DNA from: Muribaculaceae bacterium
GTDB lineage: Bacteria; Bacteroidota; Bacteroidia; Bacteroidales; Muribaculaceae
Assembly (NCBI GenBank): GCA_022510425.1
Contig: JAFLTO010000001.1
Span: 1-64,000 of the forward strand
DNA: 64,000 nt
Direction: 5' to 3'
Shown: positions 1-11,683 of the stretch, piece by piece
How positions within the stretch are numbered: the first letter of the stretch is position 1
How the letters are laid out: each line of letters opens with the position of its first letter
Notes under the pieces: model-generated
Told to the model about the DNA's origin: nothing
Seen by the model: only the letters and a program-made list of their open reading frames with translations
Databases searched by the model: none
Translations under genes and position numbers: made by a program

Positions 1-2
1 AT

Positions 3-488
3 ACTAAAGATATTCTTGAAAAATTCATGGAGTCAGTGAACAAAGCCATTGATTCTGCAAAAACAGAGCTGACACTTAAAACAGATAAATCAAAAATCAC
101 TCTTTCTAACGGAAAAGCTCTTTTAACCGTCTTGAAATGGATAAAACAGAGCTATAGTTCAATTGAAGATAAACAGGCTTTATCCTCTTTTGACAAATCA
201 GACATAGAAAGGATGTTCCCTTTTAATAACGAATCCGATTCTGTTTTGATATGGTATTTTGCAAAGCTCCTGAGATATTTCTTTGACATAAATCCTCAGT
301 TCAAAGGAGACAGCAGAAAATATCAGGGAGTGTCACTCAGTAAATATATGCTTATTTCCTCGTTGATCTATAAACTTGGTCTATCCCGTAATGAAAATTT
401 CTTAATGAGTGATGAAACTTTAAAAGGCTTCTTCAAACAATATAAAAATAAAGAGATAAAAACATTAGGCAATATCTATTTCTATTAG
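3..488 (+). CDS. Unrecognised protein, N-terminus outside window
   Basis: The frame is open from the first bases of the window to the stop at 486-488. The first in-frame ATG is at 27, but eight sense codons precede it without a stop, so the gene probably starts upstream of the window. The visible part is lysine-rich and mostly helical in appearance, with hydrophobic runs such as SVLIWYFAKLLRYFF in the middle and a tyrosine-rich end. It has no signal peptide or recognisable motif. It sits at the head of an accessory block and may be an element-borne regulator or accessory protein, but I do not recognise the family. Confidence 0.55.
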   Translation, partial: TKDILEKFMESVNKAIDSAKTELTLKTDKSKITLSNGKALLTVLKWIKQSYSSIEDKQALSSFDKSDIERMFPFNNESDSVLIWYFAKLLRYFFDINPQFKGDSRKYQGVSLSKYMLISSLIYKLGLSRNENFLMSDETLKGFFKQYKNKEIKTLGNIYFY

Positions 489-565
489 AAAGCTCTTATA
501 ATCAGATACTTTGACTCCTGTTGTTCCTTTGAGAATGACAGGATTTCTTGTTTTATACCATTTCA

Positions 566-578
566 TTAGAGGGGAGTA
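566..578 (+). repeat. 13-bp motif TTAGAGGGGAGTA, copy 1
   Basis: This exact 13-mer occurs three times in the accessory block, at 566-578, 4877-4889 and 9260-9272, always on the + strand and in noncoding DNA downstream of a gene. Here AGAGG can pair with CCTCT about 15 nt further on, giving a short hairpin. A conserved terminator or a protein-binding site are both possible. Confidence 0.6.
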
Positions 579-600
579 ACCAACCACCTCTCGTTTACTC

Positions 601-663
601 TCTGTGCACAGAAAATGAAAAAAATAATTTTGCAACGTAATCGAAAACAAAATAAGTGCACTT
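601..663 (+). promoter_or_regulatory. Promoter with two GTGCAC palindromes
   Basis: TAATTTTG at 625-632 fits the Bacteroidota -7 element. A perfect 12-bp palindrome, TCTGTGCACAGA, lies at 601-612 where the -33 element would be. A perfect 10-bp palindrome, AAGTGCACTT, lies at 654-663, just past the expected start of transcription. Both share the core GTGCAC and their centres are 52 bp apart, close to five helical turns. This is the layout of a repressed promoter with paired operators. The controlled gene would be the one starting at 721. Confidence 0.5.
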
Positions 664-720
664 GAAAATCGGTTATACGAGACTTTAAAATTTATTTTTA
701 ATACTTTTAAATTTTTTCAG

Positions 721-1563
721 ATGAAAAAAAACATGAAAAAGGTTATTGCCAACCTCAATGGCACACAGACAGAAATTATCATCGGTTACTCCATTTATAA
801 TATGGAGCGTCCAAAAGACAAAGAAAATCTCACAGCAATAGTTGACAGAGAGAAATTTCTCTCACGCATATTCCACCTCGCAGACCCAAAACCATTTTGG
901 AAAGAAGGAGTGGAACTGAGAGACAGTGAAGGAAATCTCATTGAGGAAGGAACACCAAACGTATATGTTCCATGTGATACAGCTGATACCTATACATGGT
1001 TTGAAGTTGAGGGTATGCTCCAAAATGTGGAAATCCACCATTATGAAACATTAGAAGAATACGGCAAAGTAATAGGTAACTCAACTTTACACAGCCGTAA
1101 ACTCAACAATGTTGAGGCAGTTGGAGTAGCTTCGTTGGCTTCCAATAACGAAACATATAAGGCAGTCCATAGAATTGCTCTAAAGTATAATGTTCCAATG
1201 AACACCGCACAGTTGGCTCTTGATGTGAAGCTAAAACAGGCAGACACTATCAAGTTGGCAATGGGTATGGAAGTGAAAGGACTTCCTGAAGTTGGCCGGT
1301 CGGTTCAAGACGCTGAAACATTGCTTGACGCAGCTTTATGTGTCTTTACTGAGAAAGAACTCAGAAGCCGTTATATCATAAGTGCCATAAATGAGACACT
1401 TAAAAAATATGACATACCTACCGTGGTAGAAGCATTAGAAAAAATCCCTGCTTCCTCAATCACTTCATACCGTATTAGTGATTGCAATGGGAAGACAGCC
1501 TGTCTTGCTATGGAACTGACTTTGTTCATAGAAGAACTCAAAGAACGTAAGAAAGCGGCTTGA
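721..1563 (+). CDS. Unrecognised 280-aa element protein
   Basis: This is a soluble protein with no signal peptide or membrane segment. The N-terminal half (residues 1-115) is mixed alpha/beta and rich in acidic residues. The middle (residues 120-185) is alanine- and leucine-rich and looks helical. The end carries a conserved-looking CNGKTACLAMELTLFIEEL stretch. An in-frame ATG four codons downstream (733) is an alternative start. It is the first gene after a promoter with paired palindromes and is followed by a strong hairpin at 1589-1646 before the helicase-like gene. The setting suggests a regulatory or DNA-processing role in a mobile element, but no family is recognised. Confidence 0.65.
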   Translation: MKKNMKKVIANLNGTQTEIIIGYSIYNMERPKDKENLTAIVDREKFLSRIFHLADPKPFWKEGVELRDSEGNLIEEGTPNVYVPCDTADTYTWFEVEGMLQNVEIHHYETLEEYGKVIGNSTLHSRKLNNVEAVGVASLASNNETYKAVHRIALKYNVPMNTAQLALDVKLKQADTIKLAMGMEVKGLPEVGRSVQDAETLLDAALCVFTEKELRSRYIISAINETLKKYDIPTVVEALEKIPASSITSYRISDCNGKTACLAMELTLFIEELKERKKAA

Positions 1564-1588
1564 CATAGCTGATTATTAAAACTTCTTG

Positions 1589-1646
1589 GGCGGTAGATTT
1601 TGGAAGGGTGCCCATAATAACAAAAATTTCCAAAGTTTCTACCGCC
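1589..1646 (+). promoter_or_regulatory. Strong intergenic RNA hairpin
   Basis: GGCGGTAGA (1589-1597) pairs perfectly with TCTACCGCC (1638-1646). Inside it TTTGGAA (1599-1605) pairs with TTCCAAA (1628-1634), leaving a loop of about 22 nt. No T-run follows directly, so it does not look like a simple terminator. An mRNA-processing or stability element, or an attenuator between the 280-aa protein and the helicase-like gene, fits better. Confidence 0.5.
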
Positions 1647-1683
1647 TGAGAAATTCTCAAAAATCCTAAAATAAAATCAGATT

Positions 1684-3525
1684 ATGCAGACAGTTACGAT
1701 AGACATACATAAATATGAATGGTTAAGTGAAGCATTAATGCGTCATGGCTATGGTGGTGTGATACCTTCTAATATTATACTTGATAAAACTGTTACAGGA
1801 TTGGGAGCTACACACTGTGAATTATATGCTCATAGAAATTCCATAATAATAGAGCCTAATGTTCCCGTAATTCTATGTAAACTTGACAATGAAGACTTAA
1901 AATTGGAGGGAGTATATGAAAAGGTCACTCCCATGCCATTATCAAAATATTTGACTTCACAAGATATTACTTATAAGAAGATTCTGACAACTCCTGAAAG
2001 TTTCTATAAGATTACAAGAGAAGCTTTAAAAACAGGTATTGACATATTCAGTGAAGATTGGTTCTGTCTTTATGATGAATGTGAAAAAATAGTACAAGAC
2101 CATGATTACCGTCCTTCTATTTCACTTCCAATGCAAGACTTCTTTTCTTTTAAAAGAAAAGCAATGGTGTCTGCAACTCCATTAGAGCCGTCTCACCCAA
2201 TGTTTGAAACTCAGAATTTTAAAAGGTTGAAGATACTTCCTTCTTATAATTACAGGAAAGACCTCATACTGATTGTTACAAACAGTTTTAAAAGGACTTT
2301 GACTGAAAGAATTGCTGAGTTGGCACAGAGTGAATGTATCTGTATTTTCATGAACAAGACTGATAGCATAGAAGCCATAATAGAAGAACTTGGAATGAAT
2401 GATTATAAAATCTTTTGTTCAGAAAAGAGTGTGAAGAAACTAAATGGCAGAGGTATATCAAATGCCTTTTCACAAATAGATTATCCCCTTGCAAGATATA
2501 ACTTCTTTACTTGCAGATTTTATTCAGGACTTGATATTACAATATTTCCAATTTTGCCTGACATCATTATGCTTACAGACCTTAGGACAGCCACCTATAC
2601 AATGATAGACCCTCTAACAGAAGCAATACAGATTCAGGGAAGATTCAGGAAAGGAGATGTTGAAGGAATCACTTATAAATCTTTGACACATATTTCTACG
2701 GTCAATCCAAACATGAAATTCTTTTCAAGAGGTGAATTGAATAGAATGGTGGAAAGATACGCAGATACTTATACACATTTAATGGAGGAACATAACACAG
2801 AAAAGGATTCTGCAAGAAAGACTGCCATTAATACAGATATGAAGAATCTGAAATATAGAGATCTTTTAAATGATAACGGAACGCTTAATTATTTTGCACT
2901 TGATAACCTTTATAATGAAGAAAGAGTAAAGTCTTATTATATGTCTCCTGAGTCTTTATTAAACGCTTACGAAAGTTCCAATTATTTTAATGTTCTATTT
3001 ATACCACATATTTACACAGTTGGAGAAGATGATATTTTCAGAATAAATCAGTCCAAATTAGCCATAGAGAGAAGGAAACTTATAACAGAAGCTTTGGAAC
3101 GGATAGAAACAGATTTTAAAAACGGACGTATTGATGAAGCTTCCAAAAGAATATATTTAGAGCCATTGTCAATGATTGACGAAGGTGTATTCGTTATTCA
3201 ATCTTATAAAAAGATTGGAGCTGACGGATTAAAGAAATGTGGTTATAAAAAGTCTTTGATTGAAGAAGCAATTAAAGGATATGACAAAGAAGAAGCTGAA
3301 AAACTAAGATTCAGTCCGCAAGTAATAGATGAAATACAAGCTGAATATGAAATAGGAGTCTATCTCTCAAAGAAAGTGATTCAGGAAAGGCTAAAACAGA
3401 TATATGCTAAGTATGGAATAAAATATAAAGTCACGCAGACTACTATAACGGATTATTACAGCAAATACAAAGAAAGCAACTCAAAAAAAGACCCTTCTTA
3501 TAAATTATTACAATTCAGATTCTGA
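1684..3525 (+). CDS. Helicase-like ATPase with altered P-loop
   Basis: The 613-aa protein has the motif order of a superfamily 2 helicase. A glycine-rich segment, KTVTGLGATHCEL (residues 36-48), sits where Walker A should be. A Walker B-like LYDECEKI lies near residue 137, a motif III-like VSATPL near 163, and a motif VI-like QIQGRFRKGD near 320. The usual GKT lysine is not present in the glycine-rich loop, which reads GLGAT. The C-terminal third is charged and helical with no recognised domain. The family appears to be one seen in Bacteroidota mobile elements and phages (from memory). A role in element replication or transfer is inferred. Confidence 0.6.
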   Translation: MQTVTIDIHKYEWLSEALMRHGYGGVIPSNIILDKTVTGLGATHCELYAHRNSIIIEPNVPVILCKLDNEDLKLEGVYEKVTPMPLSKYLTSQDITYKKILTTPESFYKITREALKTGIDIFSEDWFCLYDECEKIVQDHDYRPSISLPMQDFFSFKRKAMVSATPLEPSHPMFETQNFKRLKILPSYNYRKDLILIVTNSFKRTLTERIAELAQSECICIFMNKTDSIEAIIEELGMNDYKIFCSEKSVKKLNGRGISNAFSQIDYPLARYNFFTCRFYSGLDITIFPILPDIIMLTDLRTATYTMIDPLTEAIQIQGRFRKGDVEGITYKSLTHISTVNPNMKFFSRGELNRMVERYADTYTHLMEEHNTEKDSARKTAINTDMKNLKYRDLLNDNGTLNYFALDNLYNEERVKSYYMSPESLLNAYESSNYFNVLFIPHIYTVGEDDIFRINQSKLAIERRKLITEALERIETDFKNGRIDEASKRIYLEPLSMIDEGVFVIQSYKKIGADGLKKCGYKKSLIEEAIKGYDKEEAEKLRFSPQVIDEIQAEYEIGVYLSKKVIQERLKQIYAKYGIKYKVTQTTITDYYSKYKESNSKKDPSYKLLQFRF

Positions 3526-3582
3526 CGGTATATTTTTCAAGTCAGGACTATAAAAGAAAAAATTATAAAAATTCTGTCTCAG

Positions 3583-3610
3583 CTCCATATCCACAAAATA
3601 TGGAGTTTTT
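3583..3610 (+). terminator. Intrinsic terminator after helicase-like gene
   Basis: CTCCATA (3583-3589) pairs with TATGGAG (3599-3605), followed directly by five Ts. It lies 58 nt after the stop of the helicase-like gene. Confidence 0.7.
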
Positions 3611-3747
3611 CATTTTTCCATAATATCCACTTCCAATTTAAAAGGAAATAGATCCATGCAATTTTTATCAGTTTTAAAAGCCACGTTCATTATATAAAGG
3701 TTAATTATAAAAATCCCCCCTCCCCTTTTGCTAAAATGCCATAATTA

Positions 3748-3800
3748 TATTTTTGATTGAGTTAGGGGCGAATAACTGCACATCACTCTTAATCCCCCTA
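3748..3800 (+). promoter_or_regulatory. Promoter and leader hairpin for DUF3871-like gene
   Basis: TATTTTTG (3748-3755) matches TAnnTTTG, with TTTG at 3727-3730 as a possible -33 box. In the leader, TAGGGG (3763-3768) can pair with CCCCTA (3795-3800). The remainder of the 3526-3851 gap is AT-rich with a C-rich run near 3715-3725 and no ORF. Confidence 0.4.
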
Positions 3801-3851
3801 CCACTTCTGAGAGTAAAAATAAAAATTACTAACCTTTAAACATACTGATTT

Positions 3852-4874
3852 ATGGAAAATCTAATTGTTTTCAATTCAGTTGAGCCACAGAGACAAAGTT
3901 GGCTCAATGGGTATGCCACAGATGCAGAAGTGCTAACAGATTTTGAGACTACTGTTAAAAAGTCAAGTCCCTTCATTGAAGCAAACACAAAGGAAGTGAA
4001 TATTTCACACCTTAGAAATGACTGCATAGTTCCCGTTTTCAGTAAAGATAATGAGTTGACTATTTCTCATAATGCCTTTATTGAGACAGTGGAAGAAGCG
4101 GTAAACCTGTTTTTCAGCGGAGAAAAGATTGATTCCCCTGATATCCGTGTCTCACACATTATCAAAGGGAGAATCCCTGAAGCTATCCATAAACCTGCAA
4201 ATCAGCTCTTGGAAAGTGATAAAACAATCTATTACGAAAGAATGATGTTTTGCATGGAAGTTCCAACGATATGGGAGAATGTGAACGGAAACAGGCTTAA
4301 TCTCACTATTGGTGGAGAAAGAGCCTACAATCACATGAATCTATATTCTAAGAAATCCCCTGAAAAGTTCAAAATTTTCATTGGATTTAAGAATCTTGTT
4401 TGCACAAACCTATGTGTCAGCTCAGACGGATATGTGGAACAGCTTGAAGTGTCAAGTATAAATGACCTCAGAATGAAGGTTCTTGAAATGCTTGAACACT
4501 ACAACCCTGCAAAACATCTTCATCTTATGCAGACTCTTGGAGAGACTTCTATGACTGAACACCAATTCTGTCAGATTCTTGGAAAGATGAGACTTTATCA
4601 GGCACTCCCACAGAAGCTACAAAGGGAAATTCCACGTCTCCTTATAACGGACACACAGATAAATGCTGTTGCAAAAGCCTATATAAGCGATGAAAATTTC
4701 AGAGCAGAGGGTTCTGAAATAGATATGTGGAGATTCTACAATCTTCTGACAGGAGCTAATAAGAGCAGTTATATCGACAGTTTTCTTGACCGTTCTTATA
4801 ATGCTACAGAGATTGCTCAAGGAATTAGAGACGCACTTCATGGAGACAGTAGTTATTCTTGGTTTATCAACTGA
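3852..4874 (+). CDS. DUF3871-like mobile-element protein
   Basis: This 340-aa soluble protein resembles the DUF3871 family, which is common in Bacteroides conjugative and mobilizable elements and has no assigned function. The family call comes from overall sequence feel (N-terminal MENLIVFN, a central IGGERAYNHMNLYSKKSPE region, a C-terminal RDALHGDSSYSWFIN end) and length, not from a search. It has no signal peptide, membrane segment or catalytic motif. It has its own candidate promoter and is followed by a terminator-like hairpin at 4881-4909. Its presence is the main hint that the first 10 kb belong to an integrative element. Confidence 0.6.
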   Translation: MENLIVFNSVEPQRQSWLNGYATDAEVLTDFETTVKKSSPFIEANTKEVNISHLRNDCIVPVFSKDNELTISHNAFIETVEEAVNLFFSGEKIDSPDIRVSHIIKGRIPEAIHKPANQLLESDKTIYYERMMFCMEVPTIWENVNGNRLNLTIGGERAYNHMNLYSKKSPEKFKIFIGFKNLVCTNLCVSSDGYVEQLEVSSINDLRMKVLEMLEHYNPAKHLHLMQTLGETSMTEHQFCQILGKMRLYQALPQKLQREIPRLLITDTQINAVAKAYISDENFRAEGSEIDMWRFYNLLTGANKSSYIDSFLDRSYNATEIAQGIRDALHGDSSYSWFIN

Positions 4875-4876
4875 AT

Positions 4877-4889
4877 TTAGAGGGGAGTA
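4877..4889 (+). repeat. 13-bp motif TTAGAGGGGAGTA, copy 2
   Basis: Second exact copy of the motif, three bases after the DUF3871-like stop codon. Here it forms the left arm of a 10-bp hairpin. Confidence 0.6.
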
Positions 4890-4917
4890 TTTTAAAAGGA
4901 TATTCCCCTTCTTCTTT
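4881..4917 (+). terminator. Terminator after DUF3871-like gene
   Basis: AGGGGAGTAT (4881-4890) pairs with ATATTCCCCT (4900-4909) over 10 bp with one G-T pair. A pyrimidine-rich tail CTTCTTTT follows. Confidence 0.65.
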
Positions 4918-4932
4918 TAAATACTACAGATT

Positions 4933-5070
4933 ATGAATATTAGTAAAAGAAGTAAAAGAACAGGGTGGATTCTTATAATACTCTTTATAATTGGATTATT
5001 CACTTTCCCCTTTGCCACCATAGCAACAGTTTGGATTGGTGCAATTATTTATGATGTATTGACCTGTTAG
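4933..5070 (+). CDS. Small membrane protein, 45 aa
   Basis: The short frame runs from ATG at 4933 to TAG at 5068-5070. It encodes a basic N-terminus (MNISKRSKRTG) followed by a hydrophobic stretch of about 30 residues (WILIILFIIGLFTFP, then ATIATVWIGAIIYDV), probably one or two membrane spans with the positive end inside. Codon use looks like its neighbours. It lies between the DUF3871-like gene and the structured block at 5091-5388. No function can be assigned. It could be a spurious ORF, but the hydrophobic pattern after a basic head argues for a real small protein. Confidence 0.45.
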   Translation: MNISKRSKRTGWILIILFIIGLFTFPFATIATVWIGAIIYDVLTC

Positions 5071-5090
5071 AAAATGAGAAATTTATCCTT

Positions 5091-5388
5091 ACAATAGCTC
5101 CTACTCTAACATTTTTCAGTATATTTGCGACTGATTGGCACAGCCATAGAGTTGGCGAACAGTCAGTCGTAATACTGAAAGGTGTTATTGAAATTATCTT
5201 CTCAGTTCAAATCTCGCAAGTTTGAAATCTCTTGAAGATGATTGACAATAGCACCTGCATTGGAAGCTCTATATTCCACCTTATGGGGTGGACTATATAG
5301 CAAGACGGTGTGGGAGCTATTGTCTTATTCAAGAGATAGGCAATGCGAGAGCCTGAACTGAGAGTAAGACAATACGAATCCTCACACC
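5091..5388 (+). ncRNA. Candidate structured RNA: four tandem long hairpins
   Basis: Four long stems follow each other with few unpaired bases between them. Hairpin 1: 5114-5122 with 5172-5180 (9 bp), then 5126-5137 with 5160-5171 (12 bp). Hairpin 2: 5181-5190 with 5246-5255 and 5192-5201 with 5234-5243. Hairpin 3: 5266-5280 with 5287-5301, with two mismatches. Hairpin 4: 5307-5314 with 5381-5388 and 5319-5330 with 5362-5373. In addition 5091-5104 can pair with 5310-5323 over 14 bp (one G-T), which would enclose hairpins 1-3 and disrupt hairpin 4. No ORF explains the region. It may be a large noncoding RNA, a switch upstream of the lipoprotein gene, or a single-stranded-DNA structure such as a replication or transfer origin. 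Confidence 0.55.
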
Positions 5389-5445
5389 TTTCTTTTGTAA
5401 AATATTTTAATGCTTCAAAGAGGATTCAGAAGCACTAAAATTTAT

Positions 5446-5922
5446 ATGAAATTAATTAAAAATCAATGTGCCTTATTATTATGCATTCTTGTTTTGTCTA
5501 TCTTTATGAGCAGTTGTAAAGGGAAAAGACATATTAGAATAAATGAGGAAAGTGCCTATTATGTTCATACTATTGGGAAAAATATATTGCTTACAACAAG
5601 CTCTTATCCTTATTTTAAATCTGATTCTATAAGTAAATATAAATTTTATTCAGAAGGGGGAGATAAAATTTTTATTGGGGATATTGATAACCAAATTTTC
5701 TTCTGTTCTTTGATTTCTGAAGAAAAACCTGCAATCATAAAAAAAGGGATATACACAAGTAAAGGTGTTCATAGAGACAAGGTTTTAATATTTATTTATG
5801 AAGATACTTTAGATAATAGTATTACAAAAAATAGAATTTTCGTTGGCACACCACTTTTAGAATCATATAAACATAAAAATAAAGATTTAATTCTCAATTA
5901 TTTATATGATTTTCCAATGTAA
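5446..5922 (+). CDS. Small lipoprotein A, unrecognised
   Basis: I chose the ATG at 5446 rather than the upstream in-frame ATG at 5410 because it places a lysine-rich head directly before a hydrophobic signal core and the lipobox MSSC near residue 25. The mature part, about 130 residues, is lysine-rich with alternating hydrophobic residues typical of a beta-rich domain. It should be an envelope-anchored lipoprotein. It is the first of a same-strand series of exported proteins (5446-6831) and lies directly after the structured block. No family is recognised. Confidence 0.6.
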   Translation: MKLIKNQCALLLCILVLSIFMSSCKGKRHIRINEESAYYVHTIGKNILLTTSSYPYFKSDSISKYKFYSEGGDKIFIGDIDNQIFFCSLISEEKPAIIKKGIYTSKGVHRDKVLIFIYEDTLDNSITKNRIFVGTPLLESYKHKNKDLILNYLYDFPM

Positions 5923-5976
5923 GGATTGATATAATGTATTGATATGAAATTTCCAATTTTTATTTATAAATTTTTT

Positions 5977-6435
5977 ATGAAATCAAATTTAAAATACCTC
6001 CTCATATTTTTCATCGGAATTATTGCAATTATTAGTTGTAATAAGAAAAAATCATATTCAATTACAATAGAAGGGAATAATCTTTATATAACAATGCCTT
6101 ATCCAAGAGTAGGAGTAAGTGGTATTAATAAAAGAGATTGGAAGGATTTTACACTAAATGAGTTAATAGAAGATACCTTCCAAGAGTTAAAAGATTGTTC
6201 TAAATCAGGTATTAATACAGTATGGGTGTGTGTTAAACTTGAAAAACCAAAGAAAGATAAATACGGAAATGAAGAAATGACCTACAATAGTCAATTCATT
6301 GCAGAAATACCAATTAACGAAGTCAACAAATATAAAGACTATAAATATTTTGATAGAAGTTTCAGGATTAGTGATAATATTAACCGAGCTATAGAAAGGA
6401 ATAAAAAGGTGTTAGAATTTCCAAGTTTCAGATAA
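5977..6435 (+). CDS. Small lipoprotein B, unrecognised
   Basis: The ATG at 5977 gives a canonical lipoprotein signal: MKSNLKYLLIFF, hydrophobic core, lipobox IISC, then NKKK. An upstream in-frame ATG at 5944 would put 11 extra residues before it and is less likely. The mature protein (about 130 residues) holds an ITIEGNNLYITMPYPRVG stretch and a charged helical C-terminus. It lies 54 bp after the stop of lipoprotein A and 21 bp before the next gene, so the series is probably one operon. Function unknown. Confidence 0.6.
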   Translation: MKSNLKYLLIFFIGIIAIISCNKKKSYSITIEGNNLYITMPYPRVGVSGINKRDWKDFTLNELIEDTFQELKDCSKSGINTVWVCVKLEKPKKDKYGNEEMTYNSQFIAEIPINEVNKYKDYKYFDRSFRISDNINRAIERNKKVLEFPSFR

Positions 6436-6456
6436 ATCTATAAAAAATATCTTTAT

Positions 6457-6831
6457 ATGAAAAACTTATTAAAAAGAGTATTGATTAGTACAGCAATCCT
6501 TTTCATGCCTATGTTTGCAAGTGCATGGATTCAAGTCAGAGCGACATATAATAATAAAGGATATGCCTCCACTGTTATTGCTACTCCTTCTAATGTTAGC
6601 AATAAGACAATCACTTCAATTAAATTTATTATAGTATCAAAACAGATTGGAAGCAGTCCCTTTAATACAAGTGGATATAGTTATGATACCAAAATTATTT
6701 CCACCAATATACCACCTTCACAATCAAAGCAAGTTACGATTCCTTTTAATATTAAAGAAGGATATAAGTTTGACGGTGCATTTATAGAACAGGTTAGCTA
6801 TTCCGACGGAACAATAAAAACTTATGATTAA
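6457..6831 (+). CDS. Secreted beta-rich protein, 124 aa
   Basis: The N-terminus is a clear cleavable signal peptide (MKNLLKRVLISTAILFMPMF ending in ASA before W). The mature 100 residues are serine- and threonine-rich with alternating hydrophobics and look like one immunoglobulin-like beta-sandwich, with no cysteine for lipidation. The leader before it (AATCTATAAAAAATATC) resembles the leader of the next gene at 6855. It belongs to the accessory exported-protein cluster. No family is recognised. Confidence 0.55.
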   Translation: MKNLLKRVLISTAILFMPMFASAWIQVRATYNNKGYASTVIATPSNVSNKTITSIKFIIVSKQIGSSPFNTSGYSYDTKIISTNIPPSQSKQVTIPFNIKEGYKFDGAFIEQVSYSDGTIKTYD

Positions 6832-6854
6832 TTAATCTATAAATCAAATATCCT

Positions 6855-7061
6855 ATGGAATTATTTATTTTAATTATTATTGGCATAACTGTTTGGGCTA
6901 TGTTTTATGCTCCATATAAAAGACATAAGGTACAAAAGGATTGTCCTAAGTGTGGTACAAGATGTAATGCAAGTCCATGGGGAACTTCCTTGCAATATGA
7001 AAAAAGATTTAAGTGTCCTAAGTGCGGACATAAATTCAATAATTTTGATTTAAAAATTTAA
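6855..7061 (+). CDS. Membrane-anchored zinc-ribbon protein, 68 aa
   Basis: One N-terminal membrane segment (LFILIIIGITVWAMFYAP) is followed by a basic linker and two CPKCG knuckles (CPKCGTRC near residue 31 and CPKCGHKF near residue 54). Together these would bind one zinc ion as a ribbon facing the cytoplasm. Such mini-proteins are common and their partners vary, so no role is assigned. It follows the secreted protein by 23 bp and probably shares its transcript. Confidence 0.6.
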   Translation: MELFILIIIGITVWAMFYAPYKRHKVQKDCPKCGTRCNASPWGTSLQYEKRFKCPKCGHKFNNFDLKI

Positions 7062-7157
7062 GGCAAGGCAATAATGTAAAAGATTTATGAAAATATTAAT
7101 TGATAAGAGCAAAGAACATACTCCTAAGTATGTTGCTAAGACTGTAGGGAACGTAAG

Positions 7158-7685
7158 GTGTATTTAATAGGTTATGGCTTAACTCCTGAATTAGCATTAG
7201 AAGATTTAAGAAGTACAATACAGTCTATCATAGACAAGGAAGCAGGGAATTCAAAGAGTTGGTCTAATGAAATGAAATATCTTTCTGAATACTATGCAGA
7301 GGGAGAACTTCATGTATATTTGACAGATAATAGCAACTTTAATCTTCATTTTGAGAATCAACCTGAATCTACTCCAAATACATTGAATATAGTTGTTGAA
7401 GCACCAAAAGACAGATTCCAACAATATATGGCATGGTTTCTAAAACAGCCTGAGGATTTAGCTTTAATTACAGGTACAGGTAATTCAACAGAGGAAGCAT
7501 TAAAAGACCTTCAAGAAACGTTACAATATTATATTAACGGAGATTTCGCTAATGAAACGGAAATGATGTTGGCTAATAAGATAGTTCCGGTTATCCAAAA
7601 GTCAAAGTTCAAAGTTTATAAAGCGGTTGAATTTCCTTTTGAATTGAATTTTGATAACATCTTTCTTGATGAGGTCTCTTATTAA
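7158..7685 (+). CDS. Two-repeat protein; start region frameshifted
   Basis: The main frame opens with GTG at 7158 and encodes 175 aa containing two related units. GYGLTPELALEDLRSTIQ (residues 5-22) resembles TGTGNSTEEALKDLQETLQ (about residues 106-124), suggesting an internal duplication. A second frame from ATG at 7087 encodes a plausible N-terminus, MKILIDKSKEHTPKYVAKTV, which stops at 7165 after overlapping the main frame. Joining the two needs a one-base shift. Either the gene is frameshifted and perhaps inactive, or the protein really starts at the GTG. No family recognised and no signal peptide seen. Confidence 0.5.
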   Translation: MYLIGYGLTPELALEDLRSTIQSIIDKEAGNSKSWSNEMKYLSEYYAEGELHVYLTDNSNFNLHFENQPESTPNTLNIVVEAPKDRFQQYMAWFLKQPEDLALITGTGNSTEEALKDLQETLQYYINGDFANETEMMLANKIVPVIQKSKFKVYKAVEFPFELNFDNIFLDEVSY

Positions 7686-7923
7686 GGAATCTCAGTAAGG
7701 CTTTTAGATTTTCAAGAATAGATACTCATATAGGAATTTAAATAAAGCTAAGACCCTTCTAAAGTCAAGAAAAGATATATACAACATTTTTTGAAAATTT
7801 CTCTATTTATAGGGGTAGTTTGAAAAATGTAGTAGTTTTTTGATAGGTATATTTTTGAAAAATTTTATAGTCTATAGACAGGACTTGAAAAATCTACCTC
7901 TTACAAAATTCAAATTTTATAGA

Positions 7924-8616
7924 ATGAGAATCTCACAATTACTCATAATAAGCATTATAGCACTTTCAATAGTCGGTTGTCAATCCAAATCAAAAGAGAC
8001 AAGTAATAATACTGCTAATAATTTTGTTCAGATTGAAGGAGTAGCTAATGATTCAATAGAAATATTAAGGAATGTGAGAGATACTCTTATTGGTAGATTC
8101 AATGGAATAGATATAGATACTCTTATTAGTGAGCCGTTAGATAAGAGAGGGTTTCCAAGACGGAATGAGAATTGGAGAGTTTATAGCAAAAAAGGAACGG
8201 TTAAGGATTTAATCATCACCAATACCGTTTCATGTATGCTAAGATATGAGGGAGATTTAGACTTAAACGGAATAGAGGAATTTGGGATAGATCACTTTAA
8301 AGACGGAGAATGGTTTGATTATCCTGTCTATACTTATGACAATGGAGAGTGGAAATATATCTATGACCCAACTAATCTAAATTCAAATAACTATGCTGTT
8401 GAAAGGTGGAAAACAATGGATAGCATAGTGGAATCCACAGGAAGGAAAGGAGAGATACATTTAAGAGTGGCAGGTTGGGATTTTGAATATTCAACTCCTG
8501 TAGATACAGTGGTAAAAGTTGAGTTTTATCCTCTTATTCAAAAAGACGGAGTTTCTATAGATAACCTGTATCAGTATATAGAAGAAAAATCTGATAGAAT
8601 GTTTGGTAAACCATAA
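7924..8616 (+). CDS. Lipoprotein C, about 230 aa
   Basis: ATG at 7924 gives MRISQLLIISIIALS with lipobox IVGC. The longer frame from 7840 would bury this signal behind 28 residues and is rejected. The mature protein is acidic and rich in aromatic residues. It contains an LDLNGIEEFGIDHFKDGEW segment resembling the acidic loops of FG-GAP or calcium-binding repeats, which is only a resemblance. It lies on its own between gaps of about 240 and 137 bp. It is likely outer-membrane anchored. Function unknown. Confidence 0.6.
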   Translation: MRISQLLIISIIALSIVGCQSKSKETSNNTANNFVQIEGVANDSIEILRNVRDTLIGRFNGIDIDTLISEPLDKRGFPRRNENWRVYSKKGTVKDLIITNTVSCMLRYEGDLDLNGIEEFGIDHFKDGEWFDYPVYTYDNGEWKYIYDPTNLNSNNYAVERWKTMDSIVESTGRKGEIHLRVAGWDFEYSTPVDTVVKVEFYPLIQKDGVSIDNLYQYIEEKSDRMFGKP

Positions 8617-8753
8617 GAACCCTGAAATTATAAGGGATTAAGAGACTAATTTGTCTTTGCTGTTTATCATTTTAATACTAAAAGAACGATTTTGGCTTTA
8701 AAATTTGGATAATTCGCTGATTTTAATTACATTATTTCTTAAAAGAAAATATT

Positions 8754-9098
8754 ATGAGACAACTTAAATTAGACCGAAATAAGATTAATTTCAATAATCC
8801 TAAATATAATAAAGAAGAAACTCAAATAAAATTAAAGGAATTACAGGAGAAAATTAGTAAGCTCCCTTGCAAAGATGAAGCTATTTGGATAAATATTTTA
8901 GAATACATTGAAACGCACCCACGTTTTATTTACTTAGAATGTGATAAGTGTAAACATTGTGGTGGTATGAGAACAAAAATACATCATGAGGAAGAATATA
9001 ACGGTGATATGGTACATGGTGCTTTTGGCTTTCTTATATTTTGTTCTGATTGTGGAACCCATGAATTTAAAGAAAGACGTTATTATCATTCTATGTAA
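8754..9098 (+). CDS. Cysteine-motif protein, 114 aa
   Basis: This is a small soluble protein with a lysine-rich helical N-terminal half. The C-terminal half carries CDKCKHCGG (residues 62-70) and CSDCG (near residue 99), four or five cysteines that could coordinate one zinc ion. The first motif has the spacing CxxCxxC, which could also bind metal on its own. No recognised family. It is the last gene before the repeat-flanked radical-SAM-like gene. Confidence 0.5.
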   Translation: MRQLKLDRNKINFNNPKYNKEETQIKLKELQEKISKLPCKDEAIWINILEYIETHPRFIYLECDKCKHCGGMRTKIHHEEEYNGDMVHGAFGFLIFCSDCGTHEFKERRYYHSM

Positions 9099-9158
9099 CT
9101 GAATATCTACCATAATAAAATAACTTTTATCTCTTTTCAAGATTATAAGACAATTCCG

Positions 9159-9190
9159 TTTATTACAGTTTTAGAAGTAATTCAGAATCA
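9159..9190 (+). repeat. 32-bp direct repeat, left copy
   Basis: The 32-bp sequence beginning TTTATTACAGTTTTAG occurs here and at 10149-10180 with two mismatches (30 of 32 identical), in the same orientation. The copies lie 990 bp apart and enclose the radical-SAM-like gene and its upstream region. The 9099-9342 gap also holds the third 13-bp motif copy. Confidence 0.65.
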
Positions 9191-9259
9191 AATTAAGAAG
9201 GTAATTTTTAACTTGATTTATTTTTGAATCTCTTTTTCACACTTTTAATATTACTACTA

Positions 9260-9272
9260 TTAGAGGGGAGTA
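9260..9272 (+). repeat. 13-bp motif TTAGAGGGGAGTA, copy 3
   Basis: Third exact copy. Spacing between copies is 4311 and 4383 bp. No strong hairpin forms here, which argues against the motif being only a terminator stem. Confidence 0.6.
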
Positions 9273-9342
9273 ATTTCCTTTTAAATAATTATTCACCTGA
9301 CAGATTCTTTAGCTTCTATATCTTTGAACAAAAATTTAAATT

Positions 9343-10119
9343 ATGAAGCTGAATCCAATTTCAGGGAATATGTATAAGTTTATTACTCATACATGGAATC
9401 CAATTAAAGGCAAGTGTTTGCATGACTGTGCCTATTGTTATATGAAGACCATGCCATATTCATTAGGTCAAATGAGACTTGATATGGAGGAGCTAAAGGG
9501 AAAATTTAATCCTGAGCATTTTATTTTCATAGGTAGTTCCACTGATTTCTGTGCTGACAACGTTCCTTTTGAATGGATAAAGAAGGTTTTTGACTTTTGT
9601 TATACCAAAACGAATGGAGGTCTTTTTGATGAAGAATTTGACGATAACAGGACACGGTTTTTGATTCAGACGAAAAATCCAAAACGATTATTGCAATTCA
9701 AAGACCATCCTCTTTTTAATCCTAAAAGGAATCAGGTTGTGATATGCACCACTTTGGAAACAAACCGCTTTATTCCGGAAATTATGAAGAATTCTCCTAC
9801 TCCTTTAGAAAGAGCTGAAAACATGGCTTTGTTAGCTAAGAATGGATTAAAGACTTATGTCACTTTAGAACCGATTATGGATTTTGACAAAGAGGAATTC
9901 TTAGAGCTTATAAGAATCTGTAAGCCTGAGCAGGTAAACATAGGGCAAAACACCAATGAAAGTGTTTTCCTTCCACCTCCTACTGAGGAAAAGTTAATTG
10001 ACTTGATTAAGGAACTTCAAGCCTTCACTAATGTTTTCTTAAAAGATAATATTGATAATCGGTCGGAAGTAATAGAAAAGAGTGGTTTAGCTTTGGAATT
10101 ATCCCAAGCAGGATTGTAG
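9343..10119 (+). CDS. Radical-SAM-like protein in a repeat-flanked segment
   Basis: The N-terminus (residues 15-35) contains WNPIKGKC and then CLHDCAYCYM, a CxxxCxxC motif as in radical SAM enzymes that bind a 4Fe-4S cluster and S-adenosylmethionine. Following segments fit a partial TIM barrel: HFIFIGSSTDF, RFLIQTKNPKR, VVICTTLET, YVTLEPIMDF and VNIGQNTN. The layout resembles DUF5131 or spore-photoproduct-lyase-like phage and element proteins, but the substrate is unknown. At 258 aa it is a short single-domain member. It is bracketed by 32-bp direct repeats at 9159 and 10149, as if a cassette. It has no obvious partner gene. Confidence 0.65.
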   Translation: MKLNPISGNMYKFITHTWNPIKGKCLHDCAYCYMKTMPYSLGQMRLDMEELKGKFNPEHFIFIGSSTDFCADNVPFEWIKKVFDFCYTKTNGGLFDEEFDDNRTRFLIQTKNPKRLLQFKDHPLFNPKRNQVVICTTLETNRFIPEIMKNSPTPLERAENMALLAKNGLKTYVTLEPIMDFDKEEFLELIRICKPEQVNIGQNTNESVFLPPPTEEKLIDLIKELQAFTNVFLKDNIDNRSEVIEKSGLALELSQAGL

Positions 10120-10148
10120 CTTAATAAACAGGATTCTCTTATTTCACA

Positions 10149-10180
10149 TTTATTACAGTTTTAGTAGTAAGTCAGAATCA
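10149..10180 (+). repeat. 32-bp direct repeat, right copy
   Basis: Right-hand copy of the repeat at 9159-9190. It starts 30 bp after the radical-SAM-like stop codon. Confidence 0.65.
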
Positions 10181-10231
10181 GGAAACACTTGAAAAAGATA
10201 CCTTGATATGAGCTGATTCCTTTTGATTTAC

Positions 10232-10350
10232 TTGCTACGCCCGATAAGAATGATTAAATTTGCTTTAGAGAACAATCACATAGTATTAACCTGAAAACAA
10301 GGGTATGTTTTCTCAAATGTTTTAACCGTATCTTTTAATAGTGAGAAAAC
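10232..10350 (+). promoter_or_regulatory. tRNA promoter and leader with rival hairpins
   Basis: TAAATTTG (10255-10262) preceded by TTG at 10232-10234 with a 20-bp spacer is a good Bacteroidota promoter. In the leader GTTTTCTCA (10307-10315) pairs perfectly with TGAGAAAAC (10342-10350). Its first part can instead pair with GAAAAC at 10293-10298. These two hairpins exclude each other. The tRNA-like gene follows 22 nt after the leader hairpin. Confidence 0.5.
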
Positions 10351-10372
10351 AATACAAGTCTTGATTTCATAA

Positions 10373-10491
10373 AGTCCCATAGCTCAGTTGGTTGCATAGA
10401 AAAGATGAGCGAAGCGCATCTTTTATATGCCGAAGAGAGCACCTGACTCATAATCAGGGAGTCCTTGGTTCAAGCCCAAGTGGGACCACCA
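10373..10491 (+). tRNA. tRNA-Met(CAT)-like gene with hairpin inserted in D-loop
   Basis: The acceptor stem (10373-10379 with 10481-10487), D stem (GCTC 10382-10385 with GAGC 10437-10440), anticodon stem (10442-10446 with 10454-10458) and T stem (10464-10468 with 10476-10480, loop TTCAAGC) are all present. The anticodon is CAT at 10449-10451, and discriminator A plus CCA are encoded (10488-10491). Two things are abnormal. Bases 10394-10435 (42 nt) are inserted in the D-loop, and most of the insert forms a hairpin (10394-10410 with 10414-10430, two mismatches, GAA loop). The first pair is A1-C72, where an elongator would have a pair. The anticodon stem lacks the three G-C pairs of initiators, so elongator Met or lysidine-type Ile is more likely. 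Confidence 0.75.
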
Positions 10492-10498
10492 CAAAATC

Positions 10499-10530
10499 AA
10501 GCAGTTACTAAATGTAGTGACTGCTTTTTT
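10499..10530 (+). terminator. Terminator after the tRNA-like gene
   Basis: An 11-bp stem (10499-10509 with 10516-10526), six-base loop and a run of six Ts. It directly follows the encoded CCA, so the interrupted tRNA still has a complete transcription unit. Confidence 0.85.
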
Positions 10531-10637
10531 ATTGATTTTAGCATCTGTATAACACCCTTTTCAAAAGAAATATTAATTAAAAGTGTGGAAATATTTACAC
10601 TTTAATTAATATTTATTCTTGTTTTAAATAAATTTAT

Positions 10638-10645
10638 TAATTTTG
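10638..10645 (+). promoter_or_regulatory. Promoter for the 10.65-kb RNA candidate
   Basis: TAATTTTG matches the -7 element. A TTG at 10619-10621 is a weakly spaced -33 candidate (16 bp). The expected start is about 10652. Confidence 0.5.
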
Positions 10646-10651
10646 CAAAGT

Positions 10652-10778
10652 AATAGGCCATGAAACATTTATTACTTCATTTGTAATAAAGTCAAACTTA
10701 TAGAAGGAAACTCGTCTTGACAATTGGGGTCAAATGCAAAATGGATGAAGTGCATGTGCCGCGAGTTTCCTTCTTTTA
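10652..10778 (+). ncRNA. Candidate small structured RNA with own promoter
   Basis: A perfect 8-bp hairpin (TTTATTAC 10668-10675 with 10683-10690) is followed by a perfect 13-bp stem (10702-10714 with 10762-10774). Inside that stem are two small hairpins: TTGAC 10717-10721 with GTCAA 10729-10733, and ATGCA 10734-10738 with TGCAT 10751-10755. Together these make a three-way junction. The long stem ends in TTCTTTTA, so it may double as terminator. There is no ORF of note and no gene on the + strand downstream, so a free small RNA is more likely than a riboswitch. I do not recognise the family. Confidence 0.5.
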
Positions 10779-10852
10779 TATGAGGAGGGTCACAAAGTTT
10801 TTTATCCTTTCAATCATTGCAAATGCACATATGACCTTTCTTCTTTCTTTTA

Positions 10853-11112
10853 TTAATCAATTTTCTTTATGAATTTTGCCGGATTCCCGGCTACAATTGT
10901 ATCCGACGGAACATCTTTCGTAACCACAGAACTTGTCCTTACAACCCACCTGCTGCCATCATTAGACAACCATTCTTACCTATAACATTCTTACCGATTT
11001 TAACCTCAGGAAATCGTATTTTAACCTCAGGAAATCGTACTCCAGTTATTGGAGCCATAACACGGCTCCCCTCTTCCATTTCAGGAAAAATATTCCTCAG
11101 CCGTTCTTCATA
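10853..11112 (-). pseudogene. Hexapeptide acetyltransferase C-terminal remnant
   Basis: On the - strand a broken frame ends in the typical left-handed beta-helix acetyltransferase tail SSVVTKDVPSDTIVAGNPAK, then FIKKID and a stop. The upstream part reads VRFPEVKI, repeated once by a 21-bp tandem duplication (10998-11039), then GKNVIGKNGCLMMAAGG and a TAA caused by a frameshift. The N-terminal two thirds are missing. It was probably a sugar or serine O-acetyltransferase. It lies right beside the tRNA/RNA junction and is clearly decaying. Confidence 0.7.
10998..11039. repeat. 21-bp tandem duplication in the pseudogene
   Basis: Two exact head-to-tail copies of the 21-bp unit beginning TTTTAACCTCAGG. 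It keeps the frame and duplicates seven residues. Confidence 0.85.
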
Positions 11113-11158
11113 TTTTATAAATGAAAAGATGACTTATAAAATTCTTGGGTCTACTCCT

Positions 11159-11683
11159 TCATTTATTTTTTAATGTTTCTAAAGTATTTGTATCTTGGTA
11201 AATAAAATCTGTTTCATCATCCTCAGGCCTTTCAAATCCCTGCCAATATTCAGAAAATTGATCTTTAGAAACAATTAAGTCATCGGGACTGTCACCTTTC
11301 CTTAATAAAAGGCGTTTCCATAATATTTCTTTGTTAGCAAAACAATAAACAAATACGGGGTTTATATTAACTTCGGCACATAAATTTCGAATTTCATTCC
11401 TTACTGACCGTTTACAATTTGTGGCATCCAAAACAACTTTATGACCAGACTTAAGCAGTCTCCGGAGGTTATTCCGAATTTCTTGATTACAAAGAGTAAA
11501 AAGTTCTTTTTGTCTCTCTTTAGATAATCCATATAACTCCGCACCTACCTTTTCCCATATTAGACTATCAGTGGAAAGTCTTATGTAGCCTTCTTGCTCA
11601 AATTCACGGGCATAAAATGTTTTTCCTGATCCACTGATTCCACACATTATTATGGCCTGTTGGTTTATGTTATATTTATTCAT
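11159..11683 (-). CDS. P-loop kinase, AAA_33 / polynucleotide-kinase-like
   Basis: This 174-aa protein opens with a Walker A motif, GISGSGKT (residues 15-22), then a LSTDSLIW segment (typical DxxR-like substrate loop), VVLDATNCKRSVR (Walker B region near 84-96), and an arginine-rich lid (WKRLLLRKGDSP). This is the arrangement of polynucleotide-kinase or zeta-toxin-like ATP-binding kinases. No antitoxin gene lies next to it, so a housekeeping nucleotide or RNA kinase is more likely than a toxin. Its start overlaps the end of the upstream DUF362 gene by 8 bp, so the two are co-translated. Confidence 0.75.
   Translation of the reverse strand: MNKYNINQQAIIMCGISGSGKTFYAREFEQEGYIRLSTDSLIWEKVGAELYGLSKERQKELFTLCNQEIRNNLRRLLKSGHKVVLDATNCKRSVRNEIRNLCAEVNINPVFVYCFANKEILWKRLLLRKGDSPDDLIVSKDQFSEYWQGFERPEDDETDFIYQDTNTLETLKNK

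Follow-up and report, generated by a model that had tools for sequence, protein, structure and literature searches.

The question raised by this locus is why a gene with nearly every part of a tRNA-Met(CAT) should be broken in its D loop by a hairpin. In the window, meaning the whole stretch of 64,000 nucleotides analysed here from a Muribaculaceae assembly, positions 10373-10491 of the forward strand resemble, on direct reading, a tRNA-Met(CAT) whose D loop is interrupted by 42 nt between GGTT and AGAGC. The D stem consists of GCTC (10382-10385) and GAGC (10437-10440), G18G19 are found at 10390-10391, the anticodon CAT at 10449-10451, A73 at 10488 and CCA at 10489-10491; position 1 (A10373) faces C72 as an A.C pair, and six of the seven acceptor pairs are formed. 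An earlier note on this DNA had described the sequence in these terms, and both direct reading and folding bore it out. Two of its details, the encoded CCA and the GAA loop at the tip of the hairpin, hold for the window copy but are not family traits: the intact tRNA-Met on contig C42 of the same genome reads ACC ACC and then T, and the GAA loop is not common to all relatives. The predicted fold, a cloverleaf with a long D-loop hairpin (-41.9 kcal/mol, z -4.29), was equalled in stability by none of 200 shuffles. ARAGORN called no tRNA anywhere in the window, and 10373-10491 scored 23.5 bits with the Rfam tRNA model, under the cut-off of 29 bits. An Rfam scan of 9500-11500 gave no intron family, in agreement with the earlier view that a 42-nt insert fits neither a group I intron nor the usual variation of the D loop. 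The promoter and terminator that had been ascribed to the gene also have counterparts, promoter-like at 10232-10262 and terminator-like at 10499-10526; a sigma-70 scan found no promoter on this strand.

Based on the comparisons below, we consider 10373-10491 to be, with a probability of about 85%, the attR, or far attachment junction, of an element that carries a tyrosine integrase and has inserted in a tRNA-Met(CAT) gene. The features of the window that bear on this reading are:

1-10490, forward strand: candidate right part of the integrative element (contig C1 begins at window position 1)
1684-3525: gene of 613 aa, with strong homologues in six other hairpin-tRNA elements
3852-4874: DUF3871 gene (Pfam E 8.7e-155), with homologues in seven other elements
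9343-10119: last gene before the junction, resembling DUF5131 just under the Pfam cut-off, with homologues in G134 and G482
10232-10262, forward strand: promoter motif TTG-N20-TAAATTTG, presumably of Bacteroidetes type, pointing towards the tRNA-like sequence
10268-10291, forward strand: AT-rich stretch GAGAAC...TATTAAC, common upstream of the repeats (by eye)
10307-10327, forward strand: pair of putative integrase arm-type repeats, GTTTTCTC / GTTTTAACC; a similar pair precedes the C42 integrase
10373-10393, forward strand: mimic of a tRNA-Met 5' half, from acceptor strand through D stem to GGTT, putatively supplied by the element; the intact copy differs at position 1
10394-10435, forward strand: 42-nt D-loop insert, the hairpin being 10394-10430, then CGAAG
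10436-10490, forward strand: tRNA 3' half (putative att core and displaced host part), 55 nt identical to the intact tRNA-Met on C42
10499-10526, forward strand: terminator-like hairpin followed by a T run (sequence scan)

The genome (2.93 Mb in 66 contigs, 98.18% complete) contains intact tRNAs that include one Phe, one Gly(CCC) and three Met(CAT), as called by ARAGORN, which does not tell initiator, elongator and Ile2 types apart among Met(CAT) calls. It also contains two further interrupted tRNAs: a Phe(GAA) on contig C7, with a related hairpin at the same place as in the window Met copy, and a Gly(CCC) on C15. On C42, close to the contig end, an integrase gene starts 115 bp after an intact tRNA-Met (1818-1893, minus strand); its product has arm-binding, SAM-like and catalytic domains. 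The identity between this tRNA-Met and the window copy runs from AGAGCA on, after which the two diverge. Integrases of this clade number exactly two in the genome, one beside the intact tRNA-Met on C42 and the other beside an intact tRNA-Gly on C11, and they match the interrupted Met and Gly tRNAs. We infer that the left end on C42 and the right end on C1 belong to one element of at least 12 kb that is split between contigs; two of the three elements in this genome appear to be divided in this manner.

Similar structures occur well beyond this genome. Our catalogue holds 31 interrupted tRNAs, nearly all of them from Bacteroidales: 12 Phe, 6 Met, 5 Lys(TTT), 4 Lys(CTT), 3 Gly(CCC) and 1 Thr(CGT). 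G374_Val (Val(TAC)), G316_Lys and a tRNA-Lys of Bacteroides finegoldii stand outside these 31 and their counts, the first two nevertheless being included in the count of hairpin-arm pairs given below. In the genus, 9 of 111 genomes had a match to a covariance model of the D arm and insert; a wider model, with no more than 13 candidates scored per genome, matched at least 11 of 393 genomes of the order and at least 4 of 395 of the phylum, with the own genome included each time. Among the four phylum matches were the own genome and another from its order; G887 had hairpin repeats but no tRNA, and G799 matched weakly. Pattern searching gave 13 of 397 genomes in the family and 5 of 295 in the order, and with the reversed pattern as a control, among the matches listed, one genome was hit in the family set and none in the order set. 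When genome contigs were searched with the pattern, 15 of the 16 matches had a tRNA, under Bacteroidales labels except for one Merdimonas; the remaining one, L128 (Marinomonas), was dropped for having no tRNA there. The pattern scan of viral contigs returned no match. Acceptor stems are mispaired in several members, largely so in two Lys members, and position 1 is often A against C72. The earlier note had allowed for a dead pseudo-tRNA should there be no transcript, an intact elongator tRNA-Met(CAT) elsewhere and further decay in relatives. An intact tRNA-Met is indeed present in the genome, but the structure is found again, in differing sequence, in one genus after another, and simple decay is therefore no explanation.

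The evidence for an attachment junction comes from what lies upstream. In 17 of the 31 cases, an intact tRNA with the same anticodon and on the same strand is situated 1.6-15.4 kb upstream, while the chance of such a partner is roughly 0.4% per locus. The contig or the fetched flank ends too soon in 12 of the 14 remaining members, and G001_Phe and G092_LysT have no intact partner despite 13.7 and 14.6 kb of upstream sequence, respectively. In 12 of the 17 pairs, the intact tRNA is followed at 90-135 bp by the start of a homologous tyrosine integrase (fragmentary in three of these: Coprobacter, G232 and G917); for the other five pairs, no integrase match was found. The 47 nt from the anticodon arm to position 73 are identical between intact and interrupted tRNA in 13 of the 17. 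Short direct repeats (GTAAACC and variants), which we read as putative arm-type integrase sites, occur as a pair with a spacing of about 12 bp ahead of the interrupted tRNA, and another such pair overlaps the integrase start or lies immediately before it. Inspection by eye located them at both ends for 12 of the 17 tRNA pairs, the same 12 that have the integrase; a loose regular expression placed them at both ends in 10, of which one was spurious, and missed three. The repeat variant tends to agree within an element, with GTCAACC at both ends of the genome's own Gly pair, GTTTTAACC and GTTTTTACC at its own Met ends and GTTTAAACC in G032_Lys. An upstream intact tRNA, an integrase and repeats at both ends together mark the interrupted tRNA as the probable far junction, and because the left junctions are intact and without a hairpin, the hairpin and the tRNA 5' half that precedes it would come with the element. 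No empty site was present among the loci examined.

The left end would accordingly be an intact tRNA followed by the integrase gene, here on C42, and the right end a chimera of the element-borne tRNA 5' half, carrying the D-loop hairpin, and the displaced 3' half of the host gene. Recombination would take place in the anticodon arm, and in the excised circle the interrupted-tRNA sequence would form attP. In G055, the identity is clear only from the anticodon loop on, and the junction is preceded on its left by sequence other than a tRNA 5' half, although a nearby AGAGC could be a decayed D stem; this is consistent with a crossover in the anticodon arm, without proving it.

The same arrangement was approached from the integrase side. 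A contig of B. finegoldii, deposited as plasmid 17 but with chromosomal genes, carries tRNA-Lys(TTT), repeats and integrase, and about 10 kb further on, repeats and a hairpin-interrupted tRNA-Lys(TTT) that was recognised by eye and missed by the detector; its hairpin folds (z -2.98) and its D stem is damaged. A far copy of the tRNA 3' half was absent from the stretch examined in the P. massiliensis record L192 and in the other B. finegoldii record, L197; the far end was thus seen within that stretch for one of the three near integrase matches among plasmid records. Integrase searches of 198 and 144 genomes yielded eight loci with a visible or inferred far end. Seven of them had the hairpin (G178, G215, G057, G134, G903 and, across contigs, two of the present genome), all previously found via the hairpin. 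G243, found by the integrase alone, has an intact tRNA-Phe at both ends and no hairpin, and its two ends share an identical stretch that begins 33 nt ahead of the tRNA and reaches 126 nt beyond the tRNA start, a pattern that might be left by gene conversion. Far ends found by the integrase alone therefore number two, one with the hairpin (B. finegoldii) and one without (G243). At the remaining integrase loci, either the contig end was reached or there was no far end in the stretch examined. As a separate observation, two scaffolds of a faecal phage collection, MT838459 (L194) and MT839350 (L195), start inside a tRNA and continue with an integrase 48% identical to the query; they may represent virion DNA or contamination.

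Two other origins of the insert had been proposed in the earlier note, and neither fared well. Rickettsia palindromic elements are palindromic inserts inside genes, with many copies in unrelated genes, and the palindrome seen here likewise sits within a gene whose fold tolerates it. However, a search of the own genome for further copies of the hairpin returned the three interrupted tRNAs as the only strong matches (the weaker ones were short or lay in D arms), and in relatives the hairpin occupies the same point of the D loop, accompanied by integrase and repeats; it is tied to attachment junctions and not dispersed, which makes a repeat landing in tRNA genes by chance extremely improbable. 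Hardly better are the prospects of a removable, intron-like insert in a tRNA later used for translation. The remainder of the window copy is a nearly perfect tRNA, but the genome has the intact Met, Phe and Gly(CCC) tRNAs, so that no removal is needed for translation, the acceptor stems of several relatives are mispaired, and the intron scan was negative between 9500 and 11500. Group I introns, which occur in bacterial tRNA genes and have a core of some hundred nucleotides, share the insertion in a tRNA gene with our case, whereas the insert described here is far too short, lies in the D loop and is part of a candidate att site.

The function of the hairpin within the junction is less certain than the junction itself. 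Pairing is kept in 94.3% of cells across 23 aligned members (22 distinct), 8 of 19 pairs having changed on both sides; the covariation score was 0.264 against 0.127 in shuffles, in an alignment that was fitted to the model and leans towards pairing. Among 26 distinct arm pairs there were 267 Watson-Crick, 16 G.T, 8 A.C and 4 other pairs, with seven of the eight A.C at one position; the excess of G.T hints at a folded strand of tRNA sense. A palindrome serving as a protein-binding site was rejected on the grounds that all four bases occur at one stem position, each with a complementary partner, as expected for pairing. Template switching is presented as a palindrome-perfecting process in two publications (PMC8604942, PMC8794818). 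Compared with its relative G994, the hairpin of G917 has its inner part inverted and its arms perfected, a 30-nt run being the reverse complement of G994, as one template-switch-like event would do. Such switching explains part of the hairpin covariation and weakens the pairing argument against a protein-binding palindrome. A terminator within the hairpin was also considered and discarded, as a T run is lacking in the Thr member and the stem of one Lys member is weak.

Spacing provides a different line of evidence. Among the 17 members with an intact comparator, the insert measures 32-33 nt in four, 40 nt in one and 42-44 nt in 12. The distance from repeat to T loop, for the 26 of 31 members in which the regular expression located repeats, is 127-129 in five, 139-142 in 12 and 148-152 in nine. 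A Rayleigh test on 12 distinct values gave p of approximately 0.004 at 10.5 bp, post hoc and on related sequences, with periods of 11 to 12 bp performing equally or better; G243, with a distance of 154, is outside the phasing. Insert sizes of about 32 or 43 and distances of about 128, 140 and 149 thus step by approximately one DNA turn, which suggests a spacer in the DNA.

Signals for transcription are present in a part of the family. The motif TTG-N(19-21)-TAnnTTT[GAC], which we take to be the Bacteroidetes-type promoter consensus, was found upstream of 11 of the 31 members, the window included, against 0.6 expected from mononucleotide shuffles and 1 of 31 in antisense; a strict form gave 4 of 31 against 0.16 expected and none in antisense. 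It should be noted that the motif was searched for after examples had been seen. In several members without it, a motif near TAACCTATCC.ATA is visible by eye upstream of the repeats (right ends of L085, L086, L133, L125, L137 and L115). The element promoter could serve a tRNA-like RNA, or the integrase in the circle, a task performed by a promoter in ICEclc. A terminator-like hairpin, identified by eye between the intact tRNA and the integrase, counts against the latter. Use of the junction tRNA in translation is unlikely in view of its loose acceptor pairing.

Taken together, a role in the DNA is the likeliest of the hairpin readings, although we hold it only tentatively and at slightly under even odds: the hairpin may act as a spacer measuring whole helical turns, by which arm repeats and core stay in phase, and may at the same time bar a second working tRNA on the element. 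We lean somewhat against a passive relic, in which an old palindrome in a captured tRNA half would have been kept palindromic by template switching during replication and would have no function. The G917/G994 event, the wide variation of the insert sequence among members and the lack of a hairpin in G243 speak for it; its disadvantages are that the hairpin occupies the same place in all catalogued members, falls into two size classes and retains internal mismatches across species. Doubtful, but worth stating, is a new kind of attachment site, with a tRNA-shaped, hairpin-marked right half-site that would be read as a folded strand (promoter-driven RNA or extruded DNA), would control integration, excision or neighbouring genes, and would be shared by elements aimed at different tRNAs. 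We regard as rather improbable a functional tRNA-like RNA made from the element promoter and acting as a decoy or regulator, for instance towards the HepT-like RNase that some elements have next to it, or with an effect on how the integrase is expressed in the circle. The promoter counts, the pairing maintained through double changes, the G.T excess and the HEPN and/or MNT genes that adjoin four Phe junctions are in its favour, but 20 of the 31 members are without a motif that was itself picked in hindsight, several acceptor stems are mispaired, the A.C pairs to which G.T is compared are nearly all from a single position, and the HEPN/MNT genes are confined to 4 of 33 element slices.

As a kind, the attachment junction is ordinary; its form is unusual, with a hairpin-bearing tRNA 5' half at the same place across targets and genera. 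Among the Bacteroidales mobile elements that target tRNA genes by means of lambda-type integrases, NBU1 inserts in the 3' end of a tRNA-Leu gene and CTnPi/MTnPi in tRNA genes of Prevotella intermedia (PMC4755523, PMC10865867). NBU1 and CTnPi resemble the present elements in having a tyrosine integrase beside a tRNA gene rebuilt at one junction; they differ in that here the other junction is formed by a mimicked tRNA 5' half whose D loop bears a hairpin, and in that the proteins scanned included no recognisable mobilization gene. In the tRNA-dependent lysogeny of actinobacteriophages, as outlined in one of them (PMC10865867), an integrase likewise has its attB within a tRNA gene, and the element brings along a tRNA of matching isotype; there, however, the host tRNA is not rebuilt and is replaced by a working phage tRNA, whereas here the left tRNA is intact and the element copy is interrupted. 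In the open-access literature searched, we found no description of such an end architecture, in which an att site contains half a tRNA with a hairpin in its D loop. A broken tRNA becomes a readable junction in this way, and offers a signature by which the far ends of this family of integrative elements in Bacteroidales can be located; in draft assemblies, such elements tend to be broken at the repeated tRNA. A further question is why an element should bring along one half of the tRNA that it targets, with a D-loop hairpin in it. Should this hairpin turn out to be required, a structural component would be added to the reading of attachment sites by tyrosine integrases.

The gene content of the elements is varied. 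Pfam recognised no relaxase, mobilization/transfer or virion gene among eight proteins of the G178 element, five of the window and five of L132; the G178 element has a gene for an ADP-ribosylglycohydrolase. In G000_Phe, G001_Phe, G057_Phe and Coprobacter, the junction adjoins HEPN and/or MNT genes. The hairpin tRNA was considered as a partner of a HEPN-MNT toxin-antitoxin pair and this was abandoned; with these genes at four Phe junctions only, we treat them as cargo. Genes for DUF3791 and DUF3990 follow the interrupted tRNA-Phe of the present genome (L083, 5156-5823). At three other Phe loci, a second integrase, only about 25% identical, starts 226-288 bp after the interrupted tRNA (L125, 4264-5490; L117, oriented, approximately 3025-4140; L133, 18729-19907), as if another element had entered the same tRNA in tandem. 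Finally, tandem tRNA-Met-like units with altered, longer anticodon loops, mostly without a D arm, were noticed in L088 (G005:C27:5500-8500), L090 (G013), L093 (G011), L094 (G034) and L095 (G026), and tRNA-Asn-like ones instead in L096 (G018). These units are found near intact copies, with terminator-like hairpins between them, and are spaced about 107 bp apart in G005.
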